A stretch of 64,000 nucleotides of DNA from an uncultured Candidatus Poseidoniales archaeon (GTDB lineage Archaea > Thermoplasmatota > Poseidoniia > Poseidoniales > Poseidoniaceae), in assembly GCA_902605365.1 (NCBI GenBank), contig CACLCM010000002.1, positions 39,964-103,963 on the forward strand. Reading direction: 5' to 3'. The notes beneath the pieces were generated by a model, which searched no databases, had not been told where the DNA came from, and was given only the letters and a program-made list of their open reading frames with translations. This document shows positions 3,911 to 13,370 of this stretch, in pieces. The stretch's first letter is position 1, and each line of letters starts with the position of its first letter. The translations under genes were made by a program, and so were the position numbers.

Positions 3911-3993
3911 GCCGAGATCGCATAGCCTGGTATTGCGGTGGATTCGAAATCCACTGTCCCTTGGACGCGGGAGTTCAAATCCCCCTCTCGGCG
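3911..3993 (+). tRNA. tRNA-Ser(CGA)
   Basis: Acceptor stem GCCGAGA/TCTCGGC, anticodon arm GTGGA-TTCGAAA-TCCAC (anticodon CGA), extra-long variable arm, T-loop TTCAAAT, discriminator G; class II structure. Confidence 0.92.
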
Positions 3994-3996
3994 CTT
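3970..3996 (+). repeat. attL-like copy of the direct repeat (3' end of tRNA-Ser)
   Basis: GGAGTTCAAATCCCCCTCTCGGCGCTT; 26/27 identical to 7504..7530. Confidence 0.8.
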
Positions 3997-4060
3997 TCAC
4001 TTATGTTGAAGGTTCACTTAAATCGATACAAAATCACGATTATTCTCAATTTGAATTATT

Positions 4061-4177
4061 TTAATAATGACGCAGAACTCTAATTTGATTACTGATTTGT
4101 TTTAGGCGCCTCATGGCTTTCATTTCGTTCCGCCCAACATGCTTGCCCATTTCCAGCTCACGTTCTAGTCTCTCCAT
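4061..4177 (-). CDS. Possible small coiled-coil protein (38 aa)
   Basis: Short ORF read by eye: MERLERELEMGKHVGRNEMKAMRRLKQISNQIRVLRHY*; below the ORF-track size cutoff. Confidence 0.3.
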   Translation of the reverse strand: MERLERELEMGKHVGRNEMKAMRRLKQISNQIRVLRHY

Positions 4178-4208
4178 TTCTCTTTGCAGAGAATGAATAG
4201 TTTGTGAT

Positions 4209-6338
4209 TTAGTATTGTCTCCCTCTTAGAGATTTAGAGACTCTTTGAGGCGCTAAATTTGATTGGTGAACTCCAACTCCCAGATTTGATATAATTTTCT
4301 CAGTAGCATCTAATATTCTCTTAACATGGGTTTTTGTCAGTTTAATACCTGAATCCTCATTGTGTACCTCGTCGTTTCGAAGAATCCTAGCTTGCTGTAA
4401 TTTGTCTAACATAGCGCTAGTGAATTTCATTTCATTGGCAATTACATCAATCAATTTCAAAGCAGCACCTTTCCCTTCAGGCATTGGCTCTGTTTGAGTC
4501 TCGCACCACATTTCTTTAGCGTGTGATTCGAATCGAGTAAATGCTGCAGTTAGAGAATCCTCTAGTGAACCTCTTTCTATAGCGCTCTTAACCTTCATAC
4601 TCAATTTATCATTTCCACTGTTTAGGTTTGGATAAATACTGTAATCAAAAAGTGTATTTTTATTTCCTATCTCCTTCTCAACAATTACTTCTTTCTCAAC
4701 AATTACTTCCTTTTCAATAATTTTCCTCTCTACAACAACTTTAGTTTCCACTATTCCGCCTTCCAGATTAGAAATACAAATTTCATCAAATGGAGAGCAA
4801 CTCAATAGTTGATTAAGTTCGTTCAGATTAAGATTAGGTCCTGGTAGATCACTAGCGTTATGTTTCTCTAGTAGCCTATCCAAACTCAAATGCGAGGTTG
4901 GGCTAGATTCAACCATCTCGTAAAGCATAGCCGCCCTTGGACTTGAATAACCAAGGTATGGATCGATTTTCCATCCTATGCTGTTACCCCAGGCTACATT
5001 TTCTCTTGTTAGTGGCAAATTCAATTGAGGGAGTTTTTCATTTACATTTTGGAATGTTCCGAAGGTCATTGGTTGCAAATTCATCTCAACCGCTTTCTTG
5101 TAAGTTGTTGGAGTCCAACCTAAATTTTCCAATTTCTTAACTTCTTTACTAGGTAGGTATGGAGGATCGGTTAAAGTATTGACATTCCCTCGATTGATTG
5201 AATACCCAATGTTTGGAGCAACAAAATTACTGCTCCATGCTGCAGCCTCTGCTCCAGATAAGTGTTCAGGAGGGTGCATACGATGGCTATTAGTGATAAT
5301 AATGTAAAACCAATCCTTTGCCCTATTGTATTCAGCTAAAGTTGAAAATTTTGTTTTCCTTAATTGATTAAATTCATCGATTGAGGTTACTCCTGATGAC
5401 TTATATAATTCAAAATCATTAGGGTTTTCAATACCCAATCTTGCACAAAAATATATGTCCTCATTCTCCTTGATTCCAATACTGTTGTAGTATGATACAA
5501 GTAATTCATTTCCTTCGATTATTGTGGCTAGCTTGTTTAGACATTCATCTACCACTTTTTTGAGGTTTTCTGCCCTGCCAGAATAATGGTAAGAAAGCCA
5601 TTCTGCATGAGAACTATTCGATGATGTGATTAAGTTTAAACCATTTTCACCATTCATTTTGTCCTCCAATTCATTCTCCCATACCGCTTCAAATAATTCA
5701 TAGAAGTGATTGGACAGCATACGGATATTAAATTTAAAATCAGGATTTTTGGTTTTGTATTCAGGTTCTTGCCGATAACCGCCACGGTTATCTCGAATGT
5801 AGTTACCTTGTTCATTGCGAACATTAACTTTTCTCATCCAGCTTGATTTTTGCCATTCGCCCCAACAAAGTTCCACCCAATGATTATGATTAAAATTAAA
5901 CCGATTTTTTGAGTCACCTCCATATTTCTCCCACCATTTAGGATCAGATTTGATTATAGGAGCAATCAAAGTGTATTCTTCAGAATGTTTACCATTAGTA
6001 AATCTGAAATTTTCAATAGATGTTTTATGTATAATTTCACCACGTATTTCAAAAATTTCATTCTTAGTAAGATAAACTGTTTCGCTTTGGCGATAAATTT
6101 CAAAATCATGCCAAGAGAATGAAACTGTAGTTATTTGCGGATTAAAATCCCTAGCTACAATCACTGTGATCTTCGATTCAGGAACTGGAACATCCGAGAG
6201 TTTCTTTAGTTGATAAGCCACAGTAGAGCGCTTCAGGCCTAATTCATCTGCTATTTCTTGGTGAGTTCTGCCTCTTGCTCTCAATTCCATTATCCTCTGC
6301 AACTCGTTGTCGGTGACCATGCTTATCCGAACAGTCAA
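4209..6338 (-). CDS. HTH / coiled-coil / putative C-terminal HEPN-domain protein
   Basis: N-terminal HTH (ELQRIMELRARGRTHQEIADELGLKRSTVAYQLKKL); repetitive coiled coil (VVVERKIIEKEVIVEKEVIVEKE); helical C-terminus with QQARILRNDEVHNED, matching the HEPN R-x4-H motif. Confidence 0.7.
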   Translation of the reverse strand: MTVRISMVTDNELQRIMELRARGRTHQEIADELGLKRSTVAYQLKKLSDVPVPESKITVIVARDFNPQITTVSFSWHDFEIYRQSETVYLTKNEIFEIRGEIIHKTSIENFRFTNGKHSEEYTLIAPIIKSDPKWWEKYGGDSKNRFNFNHNHWVELCWGEWQKSSWMRKVNVRNEQGNYIRDNRGGYRQEPEYKTKNPDFKFNIRMLSNHFYELFEAVWENELEDKMNGENGLNLITSSNSSHAEWLSYHYSGRAENLKKVVDECLNKLATIIEGNELLVSYYNSIGIKENEDIYFCARLGIENPNDFELYKSSGVTSIDEFNQLRKTKFSTLAEYNRAKDWFYIIITNSHRMHPPEHLSGAEAAAWSSNFVAPNIGYSINRGNVNTLTDPPYLPSKEVKKLENLGWTPTTYKKAVEMNLQPMTFGTFQNVNEKLPQLNLPLTRENVAWGNSIGWKIDPYLGYSSPRAAMLYEMVESSPTSHLSLDRLLEKHNASDLPGPNLNLNELNQLLSCSPFDEICISNLEGGIVETKVVVERKIIEKEVIVEKEVIVEKEIGNKNTLFDYSIYPNLNSGNDKLSMKVKSAIERGSLEDSLTAAFTRFESHAKEMWCETQTEPMPEGKGAALKLIDVIANEMKFTSAMLDKLQQARILRNDEVHNEDSGIKLTKTHVKRILDATEKIISNLGVGVHQSNLAPQRVSKSLRGRQY
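4678..4731 (-). repeat. 18-nt in-frame tandem repeat (about 3 units) coding for hexapeptide (I/V)(V/I)EKE(V/I)
   Basis: TCAACAATTACTTCTTTC / TCAACAATTACTTCCTTT / TCAATAATTTTCCTCTCT in consecutive 18-nt steps. Confidence 0.8.
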
Positions 6339-6352
6339 AACTACATAAATGT

Positions 6353-6383
6353 TTGGAATTATTCCAATTAGTTGGAATTATTC
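6353..6383. promoter_or_regulatory. Tandem operator-like repeats in the divergent intergenic region
   Basis: TTGGAATTATTC occurs at 6353-6364 and 6372-6383 (19-bp spacing); the first lies in the near-perfect palindrome TTGGAATTATTCCAA (6353-6367). Confidence 0.6.
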
Positions 6384-6458
6384 TCGATTTAGATGGGGCA
6401 AATACAAGCCCTTGTAAGTGTTGGCAAGATTAATTATGAGCGAGCATGAGTAACTGTT

Positions 6459-7451
6459 GTGTGGGATGGATACAACTATTTTGATACCGAAAATTTTCGC
6501 ATTGAAATTGGAAAAATACTGGACCGATTACGTGCAGATACAGCGGACATTAGCAAAGAATTTCCACTAAGAGAACTGAAGAATCAACTCACGGGAGGTT
6601 CTCTATCTGCTCTATCTAGTCACTGGAGATCTCAAGGAATAGTTAGGAGTGGCACTAGGTTGAGAGGCAAAAAATCGACCATGCTTCATGATGAAGGACA
6701 TGTCTTGTGGGAGAAAGAAGAGTGGAGACTAATTCGAAATAAGGAAGAGAATCGATTTCAGGAATTGCTAAAAGATATGCAGAATCTTGCATTAGAACCA
6801 TTAACAAATATTGTTCTTAATGCTGAAGATGACTACCTTTCTGATAAATCATTGAAACTTATTTGTATATTTGAAGGAGGAAGTTCAGTTGACTTATTGA
6901 TAGATTTTTTACAAAATGTAGAAGTTAATCATCATAGAAAAATGTCAGTTGTAGAAGAGATGGTAAAAATAGGAGGCGAAAAATTTGTTGATCCTTTGCT
7001 TCGAGTTTTGGACTTGGAAGAAATTGAAATTCCAGGTACTGGAGAACTTCTAGGACTGAAAATCATACGCGCATTGGGTAGTATCGGAAGTGAGAAGGCA
7101 GTAGAACCATTACTCAATTTGTTTGAAAGAAAGAACCAGACGAATGGATATGGTTCTGTTGCTTCTGCGCTAGGATGTATTGGAGATAAAAGAGCTGTTG
7201 AGCCATTGATTGAGGCCTTATCAGATGAATCTTGTAAATGCAAGGGAGACGTAGTAAAGGCACTTGGTTTACTTAATGACAAAAGAGCTGTAGAACCGCT
7301 TATTGGCGCTTTAGATGATGAAATGTGGTATGTTAGAAGCGTTGCAGTAAAATCACTTACTTCTATTGGAGGTTCGAAAGTGAAAGCTGCTTTAGTTGAC
7401 TATGACTATAGGGATATTAAATATGGAGGAAGTTACAAGCCAAGTTCCTGA
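6459..7451 (+). CDS. HEAT-repeat (PBS lyase-type) protein
   Basis: Repeats such as ALGCIGDKRAVEPLIEALSDES, ALGLLNDKRAVEPLIGALDDEMWYVRSVAVKSL; N-terminal ~90 aa basic and distinct. Confidence 0.8.
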   Translation: MWDGYNYFDTENFRIEIGKILDRLRADTADISKEFPLRELKNQLTGGSLSALSSHWRSQGIVRSGTRLRGKKSTMLHDEGHVLWEKEEWRLIRNKEENRFQELLKDMQNLALEPLTNIVLNAEDDYLSDKSLKLICIFEGGSSVDLLIDFLQNVEVNHHRKMSVVEEMVKIGGEKFVDPLLRVLDLEEIEIPGTGELLGLKIIRALGSIGSEKAVEPLLNLFERKNQTNGYGSVASALGCIGDKRAVEPLIEALSDESCKCKGDVVKALGLLNDKRAVEPLIGALDDEMWYVRSVAVKSLTSIGGSKVKAALVDYDYRDIKYGGSYKPSS

Positions 7452-7503
7452 TTTTTATCAATGTGGTAGTAATTATTTCTGAGTAAAATAGGGGCCCAAA
7501 AAC

Positions 7504-7530
7504 GGAGTTCAAATCTCCCTCTCGGCGCTT
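7504..7530 (+). repeat. attR-like displaced tRNA-Ser 3' fragment
   Basis: GGAGTTCAAATCTCCCTCTCGGCGCTT; 26/27 identical to 3970..3996; no 5' tRNA half adjacent. Confidence 0.8.
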
Positions 7531-7580
7531 AACAATCGTAGATTGTTGGCTAGGTTTGTCAATCAGAGATTGAACAAACC
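7531..7580. terminator. Pair of stem-loops, possible bidirectional terminator
   Basis: AACAATC-GTA-GATTGTT (7531-7547) and GGTTTGTCAATC-AGA-GATTGAACAAACC (7553-7580), between convergent genes ending at 7451(+) and 7592(-). Confidence 0.55.
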
Positions 7581-7591
7581 GGCGCTCAAAA

Positions 7592-8968
7592 TCATTCTTC
7601 TTCAATAGTAGAATCATACTCAGACTCTAATTGCTTGACTATCTTTTCATTTAATCCGAAGGTAGATGCAACTGTATCGAGTAACTTTCTCTCCTCTTTA
7701 GTGATAATACGGTCTTCCATCGCCGTCCTATATGCATCCAAGTATGCGGTTTCCTCAGGCGTATGCGTTTCAGGAATGAAGCGATTAGATGCTTTGTCTA
7801 TAATTAACAAAATTGGTTTTCTTACCACAAGCAAGGATACACCGATAAAGACTCCGCCAGCCGCTCCATAACCAATCAAACTCTCCATTAGTTCACTTCC
7901 AACAATGAAGGAAATGACACCTAAACCAGTGAATACTGCCGTTGTGAAGCCTTTTCGTAGGTTATTATCGATCCCAAATACAGTATCTTTCAGGGTAGCG
8001 TGAACGAACATCATTGCTTCAAAGGCAATTGCAGCTGGAGTTATAGTAAGAGAAAATATCCACGCAAAGAATAACATTCGTTCCGTGAAATTGGGGTCAC
8101 CGTATCTCCAAAGAGTTTCATCAATAAACGTCACTTGGCTTCCATGTACTACAGAAATTAATATCAATAGTATAAACCAGAACATCAGTAATACTACCTT
8201 TCCTAAAAATCCAATGTACAGGGACCTTGAAGTGAGACTTTTACTGAAGTCGGGATTATCTCCCTCTTTGTAAGATTTTATTGAAGAACGTATGAACAAT
8301 AATGCAAGTAATGAAACCATAGGAGAACCTAGAGCAATTGCCCATAAACCAGGAGGCTGTGTTGTTACCGTTGCCTCATAACTAGCAGTACAGTCACCAG
8401 TATCCTTGAAATCATCCTCAATACCTTGTCTCCATTCTTCATCCTCACCAAACCAACGATCTGTTGTTGGCTCTTCGCCTTCTTCACAAACTACCCATGT
8501 TGCGTCTGAAACATAGAATGCAGGTACTGTTCTAATCAGTAACCAGATTGTAATTCCCAGAGCGGGAGCAATATACCAGGCATGCTTTTTGAATGAAGGC
8601 TTGTGCATGAAACTGAGTCTGTTCAATCGGTAGTAAATCGGTATACACAGATACATAATTACGGCTGTAATATGGGCTGTGAAGAATACATCGATTGTCC
8701 AATGCCATAGAATATCTTGTAGCCATTCATATCTTCTGATGTAAGGTGTGACTTGTGCAACAATAAATGATGCCTTTATCCCTTCGCACACCAATAATAC
8801 AGACATAAATTTATTTTCAAATCCTTTTGATTTAGCACGCCAAACCAAAGCAGCTAATGCTACACAATAAAACAATATCAGTAGGGAACTGATAGAAATG
8901 ATCATCCTAAAACCAAAAAGATTGTCAGCGCTGAAAGCACCAATATAGTATTCTTGGACGGTTCTCAT
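7592..8968 (-). CDS. Uncharacterised multi-pass membrane protein with acidic C-terminal helical domain
   Basis: 458 aa, about 8 TM segments, C-terminal TAMEDRIITKEERKLLDTVASTFGLNEKIVKQLE resembling TerB-like or EF-like segments. Confidence 0.75.
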   Translation of the reverse strand: MRTVQEYYIGAFSADNLFGFRMIISISSLLILFYCVALAALVWRAKSKGFENKFMSVLLVCEGIKASFIVAQVTPYIRRYEWLQDILWHWTIDVFFTAHITAVIMYLCIPIYYRLNRLSFMHKPSFKKHAWYIAPALGITIWLLIRTVPAFYVSDATWVVCEEGEEPTTDRWFGEDEEWRQGIEDDFKDTGDCTASYEATVTTQPPGLWAIALGSPMVSLLALLFIRSSIKSYKEGDNPDFSKSLTSRSLYIGFLGKVVLLMFWFILLILISVVHGSQVTFIDETLWRYGDPNFTERMLFFAWIFSLTITPAAIAFEAMMFVHATLKDTVFGIDNNLRKGFTTAVFTGLGVISFIVGSELMESLIGYGAAGGVFIGVSLLVVRKPILLIIDKASNRFIPETHTPEETAYLDAYRTAMEDRIITKEERKLLDTVASTFGLNEKIVKQLESEYDSTIEEE

Positions 8969-9043
8969 ACTTCGTGTTCAAATGATACATTTAATTGGTT
9001 TTTTGGCTACATAAACAATATTTTTGTAGGATTAAGACTACTA

Positions 9044-9922
9044 TTAATCGTTTAATTTGCTCTTTATCAAACCTATAATTTGCATGGTTTGGTTATTGAA
9101 AACTATAGTTGCAAATAGTGATGTAAAGATTAACATCAGCCACCACATAGAGCCTAAACCTGCAGTGTATTCACCACCAAATAGATCGCCGTGGTCGATT
9201 GAAGAGGTTATTATCAGATGAATAAACAAGCTGGAAAGAATTATGATTACTGAAAAACCCCAACCTACAGAGCCGAACCTTTGATATTGTTCTTCTACAA
9301 AACCAGAATTAATGATTCCGCTTCCTCTTAAAATTTCAAGAACTAGCAAAGTAATAATGACAAGTAAAGAGAGGTACAAACAAATCTGCAATATTAGCCC
9401 TGATGTAGACATTTCATTAACTCCAACCAGTTTAGCAGTCTCTTCACCGACCACTTCCTCGAACTCAGAATACTCATATTTCTGAGTTTGAGATTGCCCC
9501 ATAAAAAATGTGTAAGTAGTCGTTACTTCGAAATCGTTCAACCCATAGTCAATACTAGTCGATTGCTTATAACCATCATCAACTTCTTCATGTTCGAGAT
9601 TATACCATGAATAAGAACCTAATGAAGTGAAAATAAGGAATACCATGATCGTTGCCATCCCAAACTTGGCAGCCTTCCAACCATCAATATCGACTGCACC
9701 TAAACCCCCTTTCAACAAGGCAGATAAGTAGGGAGTATCTTCGCTATTTGCTAGTCTGGCTTTTTTGAGATTTCCAGATTTGGATTCAATTTGTTTAGGT
9801 TTTTTATTTGCATATAGGCGCAAAATCAATTCTGACTTTTTACCGCTGGTTGGAAGACCTTTTGATTTGAGCAATTCCTTGAGTTGGGGAACTGTCATAG
9901 ATTGATTAGCGTCTTTAACCAT
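9044..9922 (-). CDS. SAP-domain membrane protein
   Basis: N-terminal SAP motif (MTVPQLKELLKSKGLPTSGKKSELILRLYANKK) followed by about 4 TM segments. Confidence 0.75.
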   Translation of the reverse strand: MVKDANQSMTVPQLKELLKSKGLPTSGKKSELILRLYANKKPKQIESKSGNLKKARLANSEDTPYLSALLKGGLGAVDIDGWKAAKFGMATIMVFLIFTSLGSYSWYNLEHEEVDDGYKQSTSIDYGLNDFEVTTTYTFFMGQSQTQKYEYSEFEEVVGEETAKLVGVNEMSTSGLILQICLYLSLLVIITLLVLEILRGSGIINSGFVEEQYQRFGSVGWGFSVIIILSSLFIHLIITSSIDHGDLFGGEYTAGLGSMWWLMLIFTSLFATIVFNNQTMQIIGLIKSKLND

Positions 9923-9969
9923 GATAATGAATAATAATTATTGTTAATAAGTTGTGGCCCGGAATTAAC

Positions 9970-11769
9970 TTAATTATCATCTGCTCTTGAGATTACATGC
10001 ATTGTGCTACCCTTCTCCAGATTAGCCTTGACATCTATTGCCCAAGCATCTAGTGACACGTTAAGAACCGCAATTTCATCTCCCTGTTTTAGAGTATTGA
10101 ACAGGCTTGGCCAGGCATTATCCCAACCTTCTACTGCAATCCTTCCACTGTTGTCAAGTAGAACAATTCCTTTGCGAGCCCATGGCTTGCCATTCTTGCC
10201 AACGCCTGATTTGTAAGTAGTATATGCAACTCTACCAACTACATTCCACCTAGCTTGGAAGTCGAACAGACCTACATCTCCTTCTTCGGCTTCTGATGCT
10301 TTTTCGATTCTTGCATGCGGGTCTACTTTGAGTTGTAATTCACCTTTCCAATTGGTCGAAGGAACAACTCCAATTAAACGAATACTATCTCCTTTAGCCA
10401 CATCAGCAGGGTAAGTAAGCACTCCTTGACTTTCCTTGACCATTATGCGTACGAAAGCGAACCCTCCATCTTTTTCGATAGTAATATTCGGTGCTTTTTC
10501 CGGTACATTCGTGACACTAAAAACCTCACAAAAAATATTGACACGAGGTTTTAGGTCGGCAAAGGGGGTTAGTTCGTACACCTTGATGTCGCCTGATGGT
10601 TGATGTTGTCCTCCATCCGGTAGGTCATCGTCTCCACTACCATTTGGACAGAGCCCTGCCCAATCACATGTATCGCAACGTAACTCATCCGGGTCGTCAA
10701 TCTTGACACCTCCTTCAGAAAAACCACGTATTGACCTTGGAATTGGCGGACAATCTTCTATTGTCACCTCAGTTCCTTTGATCTCTTGCCATAAGTCGTT
10801 CAATTCAGATTCCAAATTTGTAATTTCTTCGGCAGTAGGTGGCTCAACTGATTTACGCACACCTACTCCTGCATACCAAATCTCTAGTTCATCGGGTATG
10901 ACGCCATCATGAGTAATTGACCACAGCATAGCATAGATACGTAATTGCTCAACATAATTGCCACTACGGTCACCGCCACCCCGGCTAGCTTTCAAATCCA
11001 TAATCCGGATTTTTCCACCATGCCTGTAGACTAGGTCATATTCACCTTGGAACCAATGTTCTGGGTGTATTACATTCAGAGAGAATGGAGGGGCATTGGG
11101 ATCTACGAACCAAGGTCTAGCTATTTCCCAAGCCTCAACCAATGTACATTCACCAGTTCTTGCTAATGGATTTGGACCTTGTTTTTCTCTTCCATCAGGG
11201 GCTGGGATATCCGGCCTTACACCATTACGCCAATCTGTCAATTCTGATTCTGTGACCGAATCCTTGCAAGATTCTACTTCATCCATGTGCATTCGTAGTG
11301 CAGATACGCACATATCTCGATAAGCATCCATTGAGTATTCATGCCAATTACCGCCTTTACGTGCGTTCTTACTCCACTCTTCATGCATTTCATCCCTTAT
11401 GCTTGGCCAATGGGCATCTACCCTGTCTTCACACCATTTCATGAAATCCGATGGTAATTCATCATCGAATAGAGGCAGTAACATATCCGCTCCGTTGGCC
11501 AGAACATCTGATGGAGCAGAATTGAAAACAATGCCCGGTGATTCCATTAGAACTCGGCAAACACATTCTTCAACAGCCCTTCCCAAAAAAAGAGGAGGGG
11601 TCTGCGGGAATTTTAGTCGCATCTTATTTTGATACCACCAAAGTCTAGGACAATCTTCCCAAGTGTTAGCCTGCGAAGCAGAAAGACGATTGAAAGGACC
11701 GATATCATCGGTCTGTGAATCGGCAACCTGCACAGGCATGTCTCTTATCGTGACATCAAGTGTATTCAA
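9970..11769 (-). CDS. RecB/Cas4-like PD-(D/E)XK nuclease with Fe-S cysteines and C-terminal OB-like domains
   Basis: GEYDLVYRHGGKIRIMDLKASRGG...QLRIYAMLW (PD-(D/E)XK with QxxxY), Cys in TWEDCPRLWW plus CDTCDWAGLC (CxxCx5C); C-terminal OB-like strands. Confidence 0.8.
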   Translation of the reverse strand: MNTLDVTIRDMPVQVADSQTDDIGPFNRLSASQANTWEDCPRLWWYQNKMRLKFPQTPPLFLGRAVEECVCRVLMESPGIVFNSAPSDVLANGADMLLPLFDDELPSDFMKWCEDRVDAHWPSIRDEMHEEWSKNARKGGNWHEYSMDAYRDMCVSALRMHMDEVESCKDSVTESELTDWRNGVRPDIPAPDGREKQGPNPLARTGECTLVEAWEIARPWFVDPNAPPFSLNVIHPEHWFQGEYDLVYRHGGKIRIMDLKASRGGGDRSGNYVEQLRIYAMLWSITHDGVIPDELEIWYAGVGVRKSVEPPTAEEITNLESELNDLWQEIKGTEVTIEDCPPIPRSIRGFSEGGVKIDDPDELRCDTCDWAGLCPNGSGDDDLPDGGQHQPSGDIKVYELTPFADLKPRVNIFCEVFSVTNVPEKAPNITIEKDGGFAFVRIMVKESQGVLTYPADVAKGDSIRLIGVVPSTNWKGELQLKVDPHARIEKASEAEEGDVGLFDFQARWNVVGRVAYTTYKSGVGKNGKPWARKGIVLLDNSGRIAVEGWDNAWPSLFNTLKQGDEIAVLNVSLDAWAIDVKANLEKGSTMHVISRADDN

Positions 11770-13370
11770 GGCTTCGATTTGATTTGCATTCTAGTATTTC
11801 TTGAATCGATTCTGAGTTGAACTAAGCCTTCTCTCCAACCTAATTCTGCAGAAGTTAGTTTTACTATCATTCCAGGTCGTATAGATAGCATTGTTCCATT
11901 TATTGCAGAACCAAATGCGACTACTTCGGCAACACGTTCACCGTCCCATAAGTGATATGACATCATAGACCAAGGCCTTCCATCCGCTCTCTTACCATCC
12001 CTCTTTGAACAGCACAATACAACTCCTTCGACGTTGGCCTTAGTACGAAGCATTCCCATACGAGTTAACTCGGCTTCAGATTTCTCCAAGATTGAACTAT
12101 TCCCATCCAAATAGAGCCTGGGTTGTCTTCTCCAAACCCCCGGTAATGCACCTGTGATGTAGACATAATCTTGTGGAGAATTATGCATTTCAGGATATGA
12201 GCCTGGTTGACTTTCTTCTATTGTCACCATTTTTTCACCCGCCTGAATCATAGCACCTAGTACCGGTTCACCGTAATGATTTGGAAGTGGACCCCATGAA
12301 CCCTGCAATTTTCCTTTTACATTTACGCGAGAAGGAATTGAGGATAAAGGCTCACAGGGAAGTGTAATCTCAGGAGCCTCGTAGGGAATCTCTGCTAAAG
12401 AGCACCAGTGGCAGCCTCCTGCTTTGCCATCACATGGGTTTTCTATTGGAAGAGAATTATCCGTATCCCATGCTTTCATTTCGTCATGGACCGCCCTGTA
12501 ATCTTCTGTGGAAAGGGGAGCGAGATCGACTACTTTTCTCATACCATTTGTAAGATACCAGCCTTCAATGCCGTCACAACTAGAATCATGAGTTTCACCC
12601 CACAACCACGCATAGAAGTTTAATTGAGAGTCCAAACTCTTTGCGAACTTTCCTCCACCATCACCCATCTTGATGTCGATAATGCGTACCCTGCCATCCC
12701 ATCGTAATACTAGGTCGCATTCACCTGCAGCCCATCTATCAGGATGGTACATTCTTTGAGGCTCAGGATTGCGAGGGTCTTTGACCCAAGGCCTAGCTAT
12801 TTCCCAAGCATCTTGCCAAGTTATTTCTTCACTGAATTGGTGTATCTCGTCTTTCCATGAGACCATGCTGTTGGCCTTACTAGGCTGGGTGAAATGGGGA
12901 GGTGAGTCCCAACATGGAGCTGGAATGTCGAACTCAAAGTCTCCGCCTCCCGCCTCATAACAGGATTTCACTTCTTCTAGTTGCAAAGAAATTCCGTTTC
13001 TGAGCATTTCAGACACCAATTCAATATCGAAGTAATCATCAAAGTTGCCATCAGACCAAAGGGCATCATCAAAAGTACTCTTTCCTTTGTCGATTGCACT
13101 TCTGGCATTCTCTTCAACAAGTCCGAATAACCAGCTTTGTAATTCTTCATACGAAGTGACAACTGGTGCTCTATGCATCAATATTGAACAGAAGGCATCT
13201 TCCACTTCAATGCCCATCACTTGGTGAGGGGAAAGTGGCCCTCTCAGGCCGATTCTGTAATTCAAAAACCACTGCTTTTCACAGCGTAAAAATGTCGTTA
13301 AGGACGAGGCTGATAAACGGCCACGCGCCCTACCTATGGATTGAGCTTCTGGAGGAATCTGTGCTGGCAT
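11766..13370 (-). CDS. RecB/Cas4-like PD-(D/E)XK nuclease, paralog of the neighbouring gene
   Basis: FLRCEKQWFLNYRIGLRG; GECDLVLRWDGRVRIIDIKMGDGG...QLNFYAWLW; CDGKAGGCHWC; overlaps the downstream gene by 4 nt. Confidence 0.8.
   Translation of the reverse strand: MPAQIPPEAQSIGRARGRLSASSLTTFLRCEKQWFLNYRIGLRGPLSPHQVMGIEVEDAFCSILMHRAPVVTSYEELQSWLFGLVEENARSAIDKGKSTFDDALWSDGNFDDYFDIELVSEMLRNGISLQLEEVKSCYEAGGGDFEFDIPAPCWDSPPHFTQPSKANSMVSWKDEIHQFSEEITWQDAWEIARPWVKDPRNPEPQRMYHPDRWAAGECDLVLRWDGRVRIIDIKMGDGGGKFAKSLDSQLNFYAWLWGETHDSSCDGIEGWYLTNGMRKVVDLAPLSTEDYRAVHDEMKAWDTDNSLPIENPCDGKAGGCHWCSLAEIPYEAPEITLPCEPLSSIPSRVNVKGKLQGSWGPLPNHYGEPVLGAMIQAGEKMVTIEESQPGSYPEMHNSPQDYVYITGALPGVWRRQPRLYLDGNSSILEKSEAELTRMGMLRTKANVEGVVLCCSKRDGKRADGRPWSMMSYHLWDGERVAEVVAFGSAINGTMLSIRPGMIVKLTSAELGWREGLVQLRIDSRNTRMQIKSKP

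Follow-up and report, generated by a model that had tools for sequence, protein, structure and literature searches.

The HEPN signature consists of R-x4-6-H with N, D or H following the arginine, often accompanied by a separate E-x3-[KR] motif; some HEPN domains are non-catalytic (PMC3710099). Since fusions with helix-turn-helix (HTH) domains were already present in the 2013 HEPN survey, i.e., DUF4145 with sigma-HTH and EC042_2821 with wHTH (PMC3710099), an HTH-HEPN fusion is not new as such. For mobile islands at tRNA genes, the Islander signature requires an integrase (PMC4383910). Little literature was found on the defence and toxin systems of the uncultured ocean archaea considered here.

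Within the window, i.e., the whole 64,000-nucleotide stretch of Poseidoniales DNA analysed here, we studied a gene for a 709-aa protein comprising an N-terminal HTH, an unmatched middle, a hexapeptide linker, and a C-terminus that is all-helical and contains R654-N-x3-H659. It resembles the Abi2/Swt1 and DUF4145-type HEPN RNases (PMC3710099) in its R-N-x3-H motif with a polar residue after the arginine, in the position of this motif before the last helix (here predicted), and in the fusion of the effector domain to other domains, for which HTH fusions are known. Unlike named HEPN families, it lacks a significant profile match and its middle is unmatched; also in contrast to the Abi2/Swt1 and DUF4145 types, its family was found here in only one marine archaeal order. 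The C-terminal domain further shares a helical character and an R-x4-H motif with the HepT toxin of MntA-HepT, with Foldseek matches at E-values of 0.8 to 4 only. However, HepT is about 130 aa and has a separate MntA nucleotidyltransferase antitoxin, whereas the 3.5-kb element described below encodes none: no adjacent or fused MNT nucleotidyltransferase was found, and the element's only other sizeable gene encodes a HEAT-repeat protein. The element itself resembles Islander-type islands (PMC4383910) in having an intact tRNA gene, a displaced 3' fragment, an insert exactly between them, and a site that is variable across relatives; it differs from them in lacking an integrase, in measuring only 3.5 kb, and in carrying just two sizeable genes. 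We propose that the 709-aa protein probably represents a new HEPN-like family fused to an HTH and putatively acts as an autoregulated RNase effector.

Table 1. Features of the tRNA-Ser(CGA) element and its 709-aa gene (window positions).
Feature	Position	Strand	Basis or remark
tRNA-Ser (anticodon CGA), insertion target, left intact	3911..3994	+	ARAGORN
attL, 25-bp 3' end of tRNA gene, GGAGTTCAAATCCCCCTCTCGGCGC	3970..3994	+	Sequence repeat
38-aa charged ORF, 31 bp downstream of 709-aa gene	4061..4177	-	No family
HTH / variable middle / HEPN-like protein, 709 aa	4209..6338	-	ORF coordinates, strand and length exact
HEPN-like C-terminal helical domain, residues 564-690	4269..4649	-	G069 alignment, AF2 helices, weak HEPN profiles
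R654-N-D-E-V-H659, candidate catalytic R-x4-H motif	4362..4379	-	RNWVSH in G069
Hexapeptide (EKEVIV) linker, 18-bp tandem repeat	4672..4722	-	2.8 copies
Middle region, residues 271-480, weak 14-residue helical-type periodicity	4899..5528	-	Autocorrelation
HTH domain, residues 8-49	6192..6317	-	Pfam, PHROG, NCBIfam models; AF2
Alternative start, ATG (Met7), 703 aa	6320	-	TATA spacing and sister copy
Operator-like array, TTGGAATTATTCCAA palindrome and overlapping second inverted repeat	6353..6383		5' of TATA-like box and Met7
Divergent 330-aa HEAT-repeat protein, second gene of element	6459..7451	+	Pfam HEAT_2, E=6e-21
attR, displaced copy of tRNA 3' end, GGAGTTCAAATCTCCCTCTCGGCGC, 24/25 identical; right end of element	7504..7528	+	Sequence repeat

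The 709-aa Protein Has Two Relatives and a Divergent Middle

The open reading frame was confirmed, its strand and length being exact. Its frame opens with a TTG, a start that is doubtful because Met7 better suits the TATA spacing and is retained in the sister copy from genome G023. A TATA-like TTTATG lies about 25-30 bp 5' of Met7, and initiation there would suit a leaderless archaeal transcript. The protein gave no effector match in PADLOC, PHROG, or NCBIfam, nor did it resemble Rep, primase, or recombinase families in Pfam, PHROG, or NCBIfam. A structure prediction of the full protein, proposed in the sequence-only reading, was made with AF2 on the single sequence; at a pLDDT of 36, the model as a whole was uninformative.

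Only two relatives turned up among about 320 Poseidoniales genomes and a phylum sample. The gene in G023 (same genus, Euryarchaeota archaeon isolate SAT94) encodes 124 N-terminal residues that are 94% identical to the 709-aa protein before its contig ends; the 118 shared codons hold three synonymous and seven non-synonymous changes, too few to use. No distant homologue was found in the order Poseidoniales other than the gene in G069 (genus g4, same family), which comprises a 522-aa ORF with an N-terminal HTH, an in-frame TAA falling just ahead of the motif block, and 63 more residues. This break may reflect real decay or an assembly error, and residues past the TAA were compared with an X at the stop. 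Viral contigs (four scans), phages, and plasmids yielded no homologues.

Four weaker matches (E-values of 0.005-0.1) were rejected as chance: in the two strongest, from G004 and G095, the matched stretch lies across unrelated ORFs in other frames or on other strands, and those in G190 and G011 failed when read in place. An E-value near 0.005 was the noise level of these searches.

Because E-values of about 0.005 occur by chance, the G069 homologue was tested separately against shuffled sequences. The C-terminal alignment scored 12.7 SD above shuffles (0/400) and still 8.9 SD above them when the motif block was left out; with the HTH removed, the alignment of the proteins was 10.3 SD above 400 shuffles. 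Residues 300-530 were weakly alignable (2.7 SD) and residues 54-300 were not alignable (0.0 SD). Given 12.7 SD for the C-terminus against 0.0 SD for residues 54-300, the C-terminal domain is what selection keeps. These tests point to a family in which an HTH and a conserved C-terminal domain enclose a middle that has diverged.

The middle resembles no family that the sequence-only reading could recognise, and this held in our searches: no convincing match was found in Pfam, PHROGs, NCBIfam, PADLOC, or PDB sequences. Autocorrelation at a lag of 14 residues exceeded 95% of shuffles in the 709-aa protein only; in the G069 homologue, this lag ranked second and was not significant. Between the middle and the C-terminal domain, a hexapeptide-repeat coiled coil had been proposed. 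The repeat is real, as an 18-bp tandem at DNA level. However, it is not a heptad coiled coil, given that its period is six, that the full-length single-sequence AF2 model places no helix across it, and that it is absent from the G069 homologue; it is better named a linker.

The Conserved C-Terminal Domain Is Likely HEPN-Like

Apart from the HTH, the C-terminal domain is the most conserved portion of the 709-aa protein. The two proteins have in common the block Q-A-R-x2-R-N-x3-H-x-E (LQQARILRNDEVHNED in the 709-aa protein and LHQARLARNWVSHKES in G069), which ranks with the domain's best-conserved stretches. The sequence-only reading had called this region a HEPN ribonuclease from its R-x4-H motif and named conservation of the arginine and histidine as a check. 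Both residues are kept in the sole distant homologue found, as is the asparagine, and a polar residue follows the arginine in each of the only two sequences available (RNDEVH and RNWVSH). Such a six-residue pattern is cheap by itself, but its conservation in a homologue of about 25% identity is not. The accessory E-x3-[KR] motif is present as ESHAK in the 709-aa protein and missing from the G069 homologue.

The HEPN call was weaker at the level of profiles, whose matches lay at the edge of significance, and at that of folds. HEPN_Cthe2314 was the only relevant Pfam match to the domain (E=0.087; 13.3 bits against a cut-off of 27.1), centred on the motif and covering exactly the motif helix. Scanned over 147 genomes of the phylum, this profile matched neither them nor the controls, a result that is uninformative either way. 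We also used hhalign to compare the domain with Swt1-HEPN proteins drawn from the same phylum, which show the same local layout around the motif (e.g., LLNVRNKSAHIGGNDFSDRDARRALD). The alignment scored 19.2 with the motifs in register, above all 100 of 100 column shuffles (maximum 18.1) at a reported probability of 2.6%, and a reversed query scored 8.8. The DUF4145 proteins of the phylum provided no useful motif comparison.

Single-sequence AF2 modelling of the domain gave an all-helical structure of low confidence (pLDDT 54.5, pTM 0.41), with helices at domain residues 6-22, 25-47, 56-69, and 74-86, a small hairpin, and a helix at 102-118; in this model, the motif lies at the end of the fourth helix and ahead of the last. 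A Foldseek search with the model returned nothing significant (best E=0.77). The HepT chains 7bxo, 5yep, 6m6w, and 6m6u, all probably one protein, recurred in its list of weak matches, as did the HEPN protein Las1 (E of about 1).

It follows from neither search that the fold is HEPN, and the domain might instead be an unrelated conserved helical domain in which R-N-x3-H is coincidental, making the protein an ordinary HTH accessory protein of unknown fold. This is consistent with the lack of a significant HEPN profile or structure match, and with FADD (E=0.73) being the sole match of the domain among PDB sequences. We nevertheless regard it as rather unlikely: the motif falls among the best-conserved blocks and is positioned as in HEPN domains, two separate HEPN profiles pick exactly the motif stretch, and HepT and Las1 chains appear several times among the weak Foldseek matches. 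The HEPN assignment is thus plausible but unproven; we consider the domain likely to be HEPN-like and put the chance that it is a catalytic RNase slightly above even.

An N-Terminal HTH and Upstream Repeats Suggest Self-Regulation

The HTH seen at the N-terminus in the sequence-only reading was confirmed. Residues 8-49 match HTH_20 (E=1e-4) and HTH_38 (E=2e-4) in Pfam and a PHROG HTH (4e-6), together with many other HTH models of Pfam, PHROG, and NCBIfam; the Pfam scores are slightly under their cut-offs. In the G069 homologue, the HTH scores above the cut-off for HTH_7 (27.7 versus 23.8 bits). It is also the best-scored portion of the full-length AF2 model (pLDDT about 75).

Upstream of the gene, the TTGGAATTATTCCAA operator-like array spans -47 to -33 relative to Met7. 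In G069, the likely start of the homologue is preceded at the same distance (-43 to -25) by a 7+7 inverted repeat of different, unrelated sequence. Because such inverted-repeat patterns arise in 4-10% of randomised upstream sequences, autoregulation through these repeats can only be suggested.

The same kind of HTH stands at the extreme start of a protein with an HsdM N-terminal domain (PF12161, E=3e-22) in the related genome G088 (L005:1504-2106), where this type I restriction gene adjoins a gene for a resolvase-type recombinase. On account of this fusion, the HTH type does become joined to defence proteins in these archaea. In addition, many small Poseidoniales HTH proteins of 77-108 aa, most with a hydrophobic tail, were found (loci L004 and L006-L017). 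Their HTH shares 36-56% identity with the one in the 709-aa protein, and they are a possible source of its DNA-binding domain.

The upstream repeats and the HTH-HsdM fusion favour a self-repressed HEPN RNase effector that infection, or loss of the element, would release. The HTH would bind the inverted repeats over its own archaeal promoter and hold the gene down. The middle, large and fast-evolving, would serve to sense a signal of infection or a partner, or would itself be bound by one of them. A C-terminal HEPN-like dimer might then cut RNA through R654 and H659, which would stop growth of the infected cell or protect the element from loss. We give an even chance to the reading in which a tiny tRNA-Ser(CGA) element lacking an integrase has as its cargo this protein, a putative HEPN-type RNase effector that regulates itself.

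The DNA-binding domain and the inverted repeats upstream of both copies could also belong to a regulator or replication-type protein, with an HTH that binds the element's DNA, a C-terminal domain serving as a non-catalytic dimerisation or nucleic-acid-binding module, and a HEPN-like motif that is structural or ligand-binding. Non-catalytic HEPN domains do exist (PMC3710099), and the gene is the largest of a 3.5-kb element that has no other replication or recombination gene. However, the protein shows no Rep, primase, or recombinase similarity, and it retains R, N, and H, all of which would be needless in a purely structural domain; we hold this alternative to be possible, at well below even chances.

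Returning to the self-repressed effector, it is doubtful, though conceivable, that the locus forms a one-protein defence or addiction system, in which an archaeal HEPN RNase comes with an HTH repressor of its own and a private sensor region, and makes up nearly all the cargo of an integrase-less 3.5-kb element recombining into tRNA-Ser through a recombinase supplied in trans. If the reading as a HEPN-type RNase effector is right, a HEPN-like family of abundant uncultured ocean archaea has been missed by current profile libraries, and a large effector encoded by a single gene can be mobilised on an element that holds little besides.

The Gene Lies in a 3.5-kb Element at tRNA-Ser(CGA)

The sequence-only reading was right to place the gene on a mobile island, which can now be sharpened to a 3.5-kb insertion at tRNA-Ser. 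As in tRNA-integrated islands, the insert is bounded by the tRNA gene (attL) and its displaced fragment (attR), and a relative, the sister species G021, has the empty site. There, the 60 bp found after attR in the window (7529-7588) directly follow the tRNA, and positions 97-181 of locus L074 are 96% identical to window positions 7504-7588. Because the tRNA 3' end is repeated at 7504-7528 and G021 is continuous beyond it, positions 3995-7528 are read, from this comparison, as a precise tRNA-directed insertion. The same tRNA flanks the variable region on this side in most fully fetched neighbourhoods of the genus; depending on the genus member, between tens of bases and about 6 kb separate it from a RecB-like gene.

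The 709-aa gene and the divergent HEAT-repeat gene are the element's only sizeable genes, with at most one 38-aa ORF besides, which is possibly a small partner of the 709-aa protein or nothing. No integrase, known defence gene, or antitoxin was found within the 3.5 kb. Having no integrase, the element would have to be mobilised in trans or have decayed. The sole tyrosine recombinase found in this roughly 60%-complete genome lies on another contig; with a counterpart of 59% identity in another genus, it looks as expected of a Xer-type housekeeping enzyme.

No other sizeable gene lies between attL and attR, and the two genes share a single intergenic region; they might form one system, with the HEAT-repeat protein acting as sensor, antidote, or partner to the HTH-HEPN protein. 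HEAT-repeat proteins do feature in PADLOC defence models; the one encoded here matches HEAT-ARM_XIII (E=1e-11) through its repeats only, and its relatives are generic HEAT repeats with no linked system. An obligate partnership with the HEAT gene is contradicted by G023, where the 94%-identical gene abuts a zinc-ribbon gene instead. As no match to the HEAT-repeat protein was found in G023 (an incomplete assembly), and neither of the two genes beside the G069 homologue encodes one, we judge a two-gene system to be improbable.

The tRNA-Ser(CGA)/RecB-like site is a variable hotspot whose genes differ by species (window 3995-9975; loci L072-L089), and many MAG contigs end inside the interval. Window positions 7589-9975, with two membrane-protein genes, are likewise missing from G021. 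In the protein of one minus-strand gene in this part (9044-9922), what looks by eye like a SAP-type DNA-binding motif (MTVPQLKELLKSKGLPTSGKKSELILRL) stands N-terminal to membrane helices, which is an unusual pairing. Genome G010 encodes, at this tRNA-Ser site, a 1403-aa repeat-rich secreted-type protein (L089:194-4405), with calcium-binding-like DxDxDG repeats as judged by eye. Next to the hotspot, positions 9970-13370 encode a tandem pair of RecB/PD-(D/E)XK-like proteins that are related to each other (about 32% identity over 300 aa) and widely conserved in the genus.
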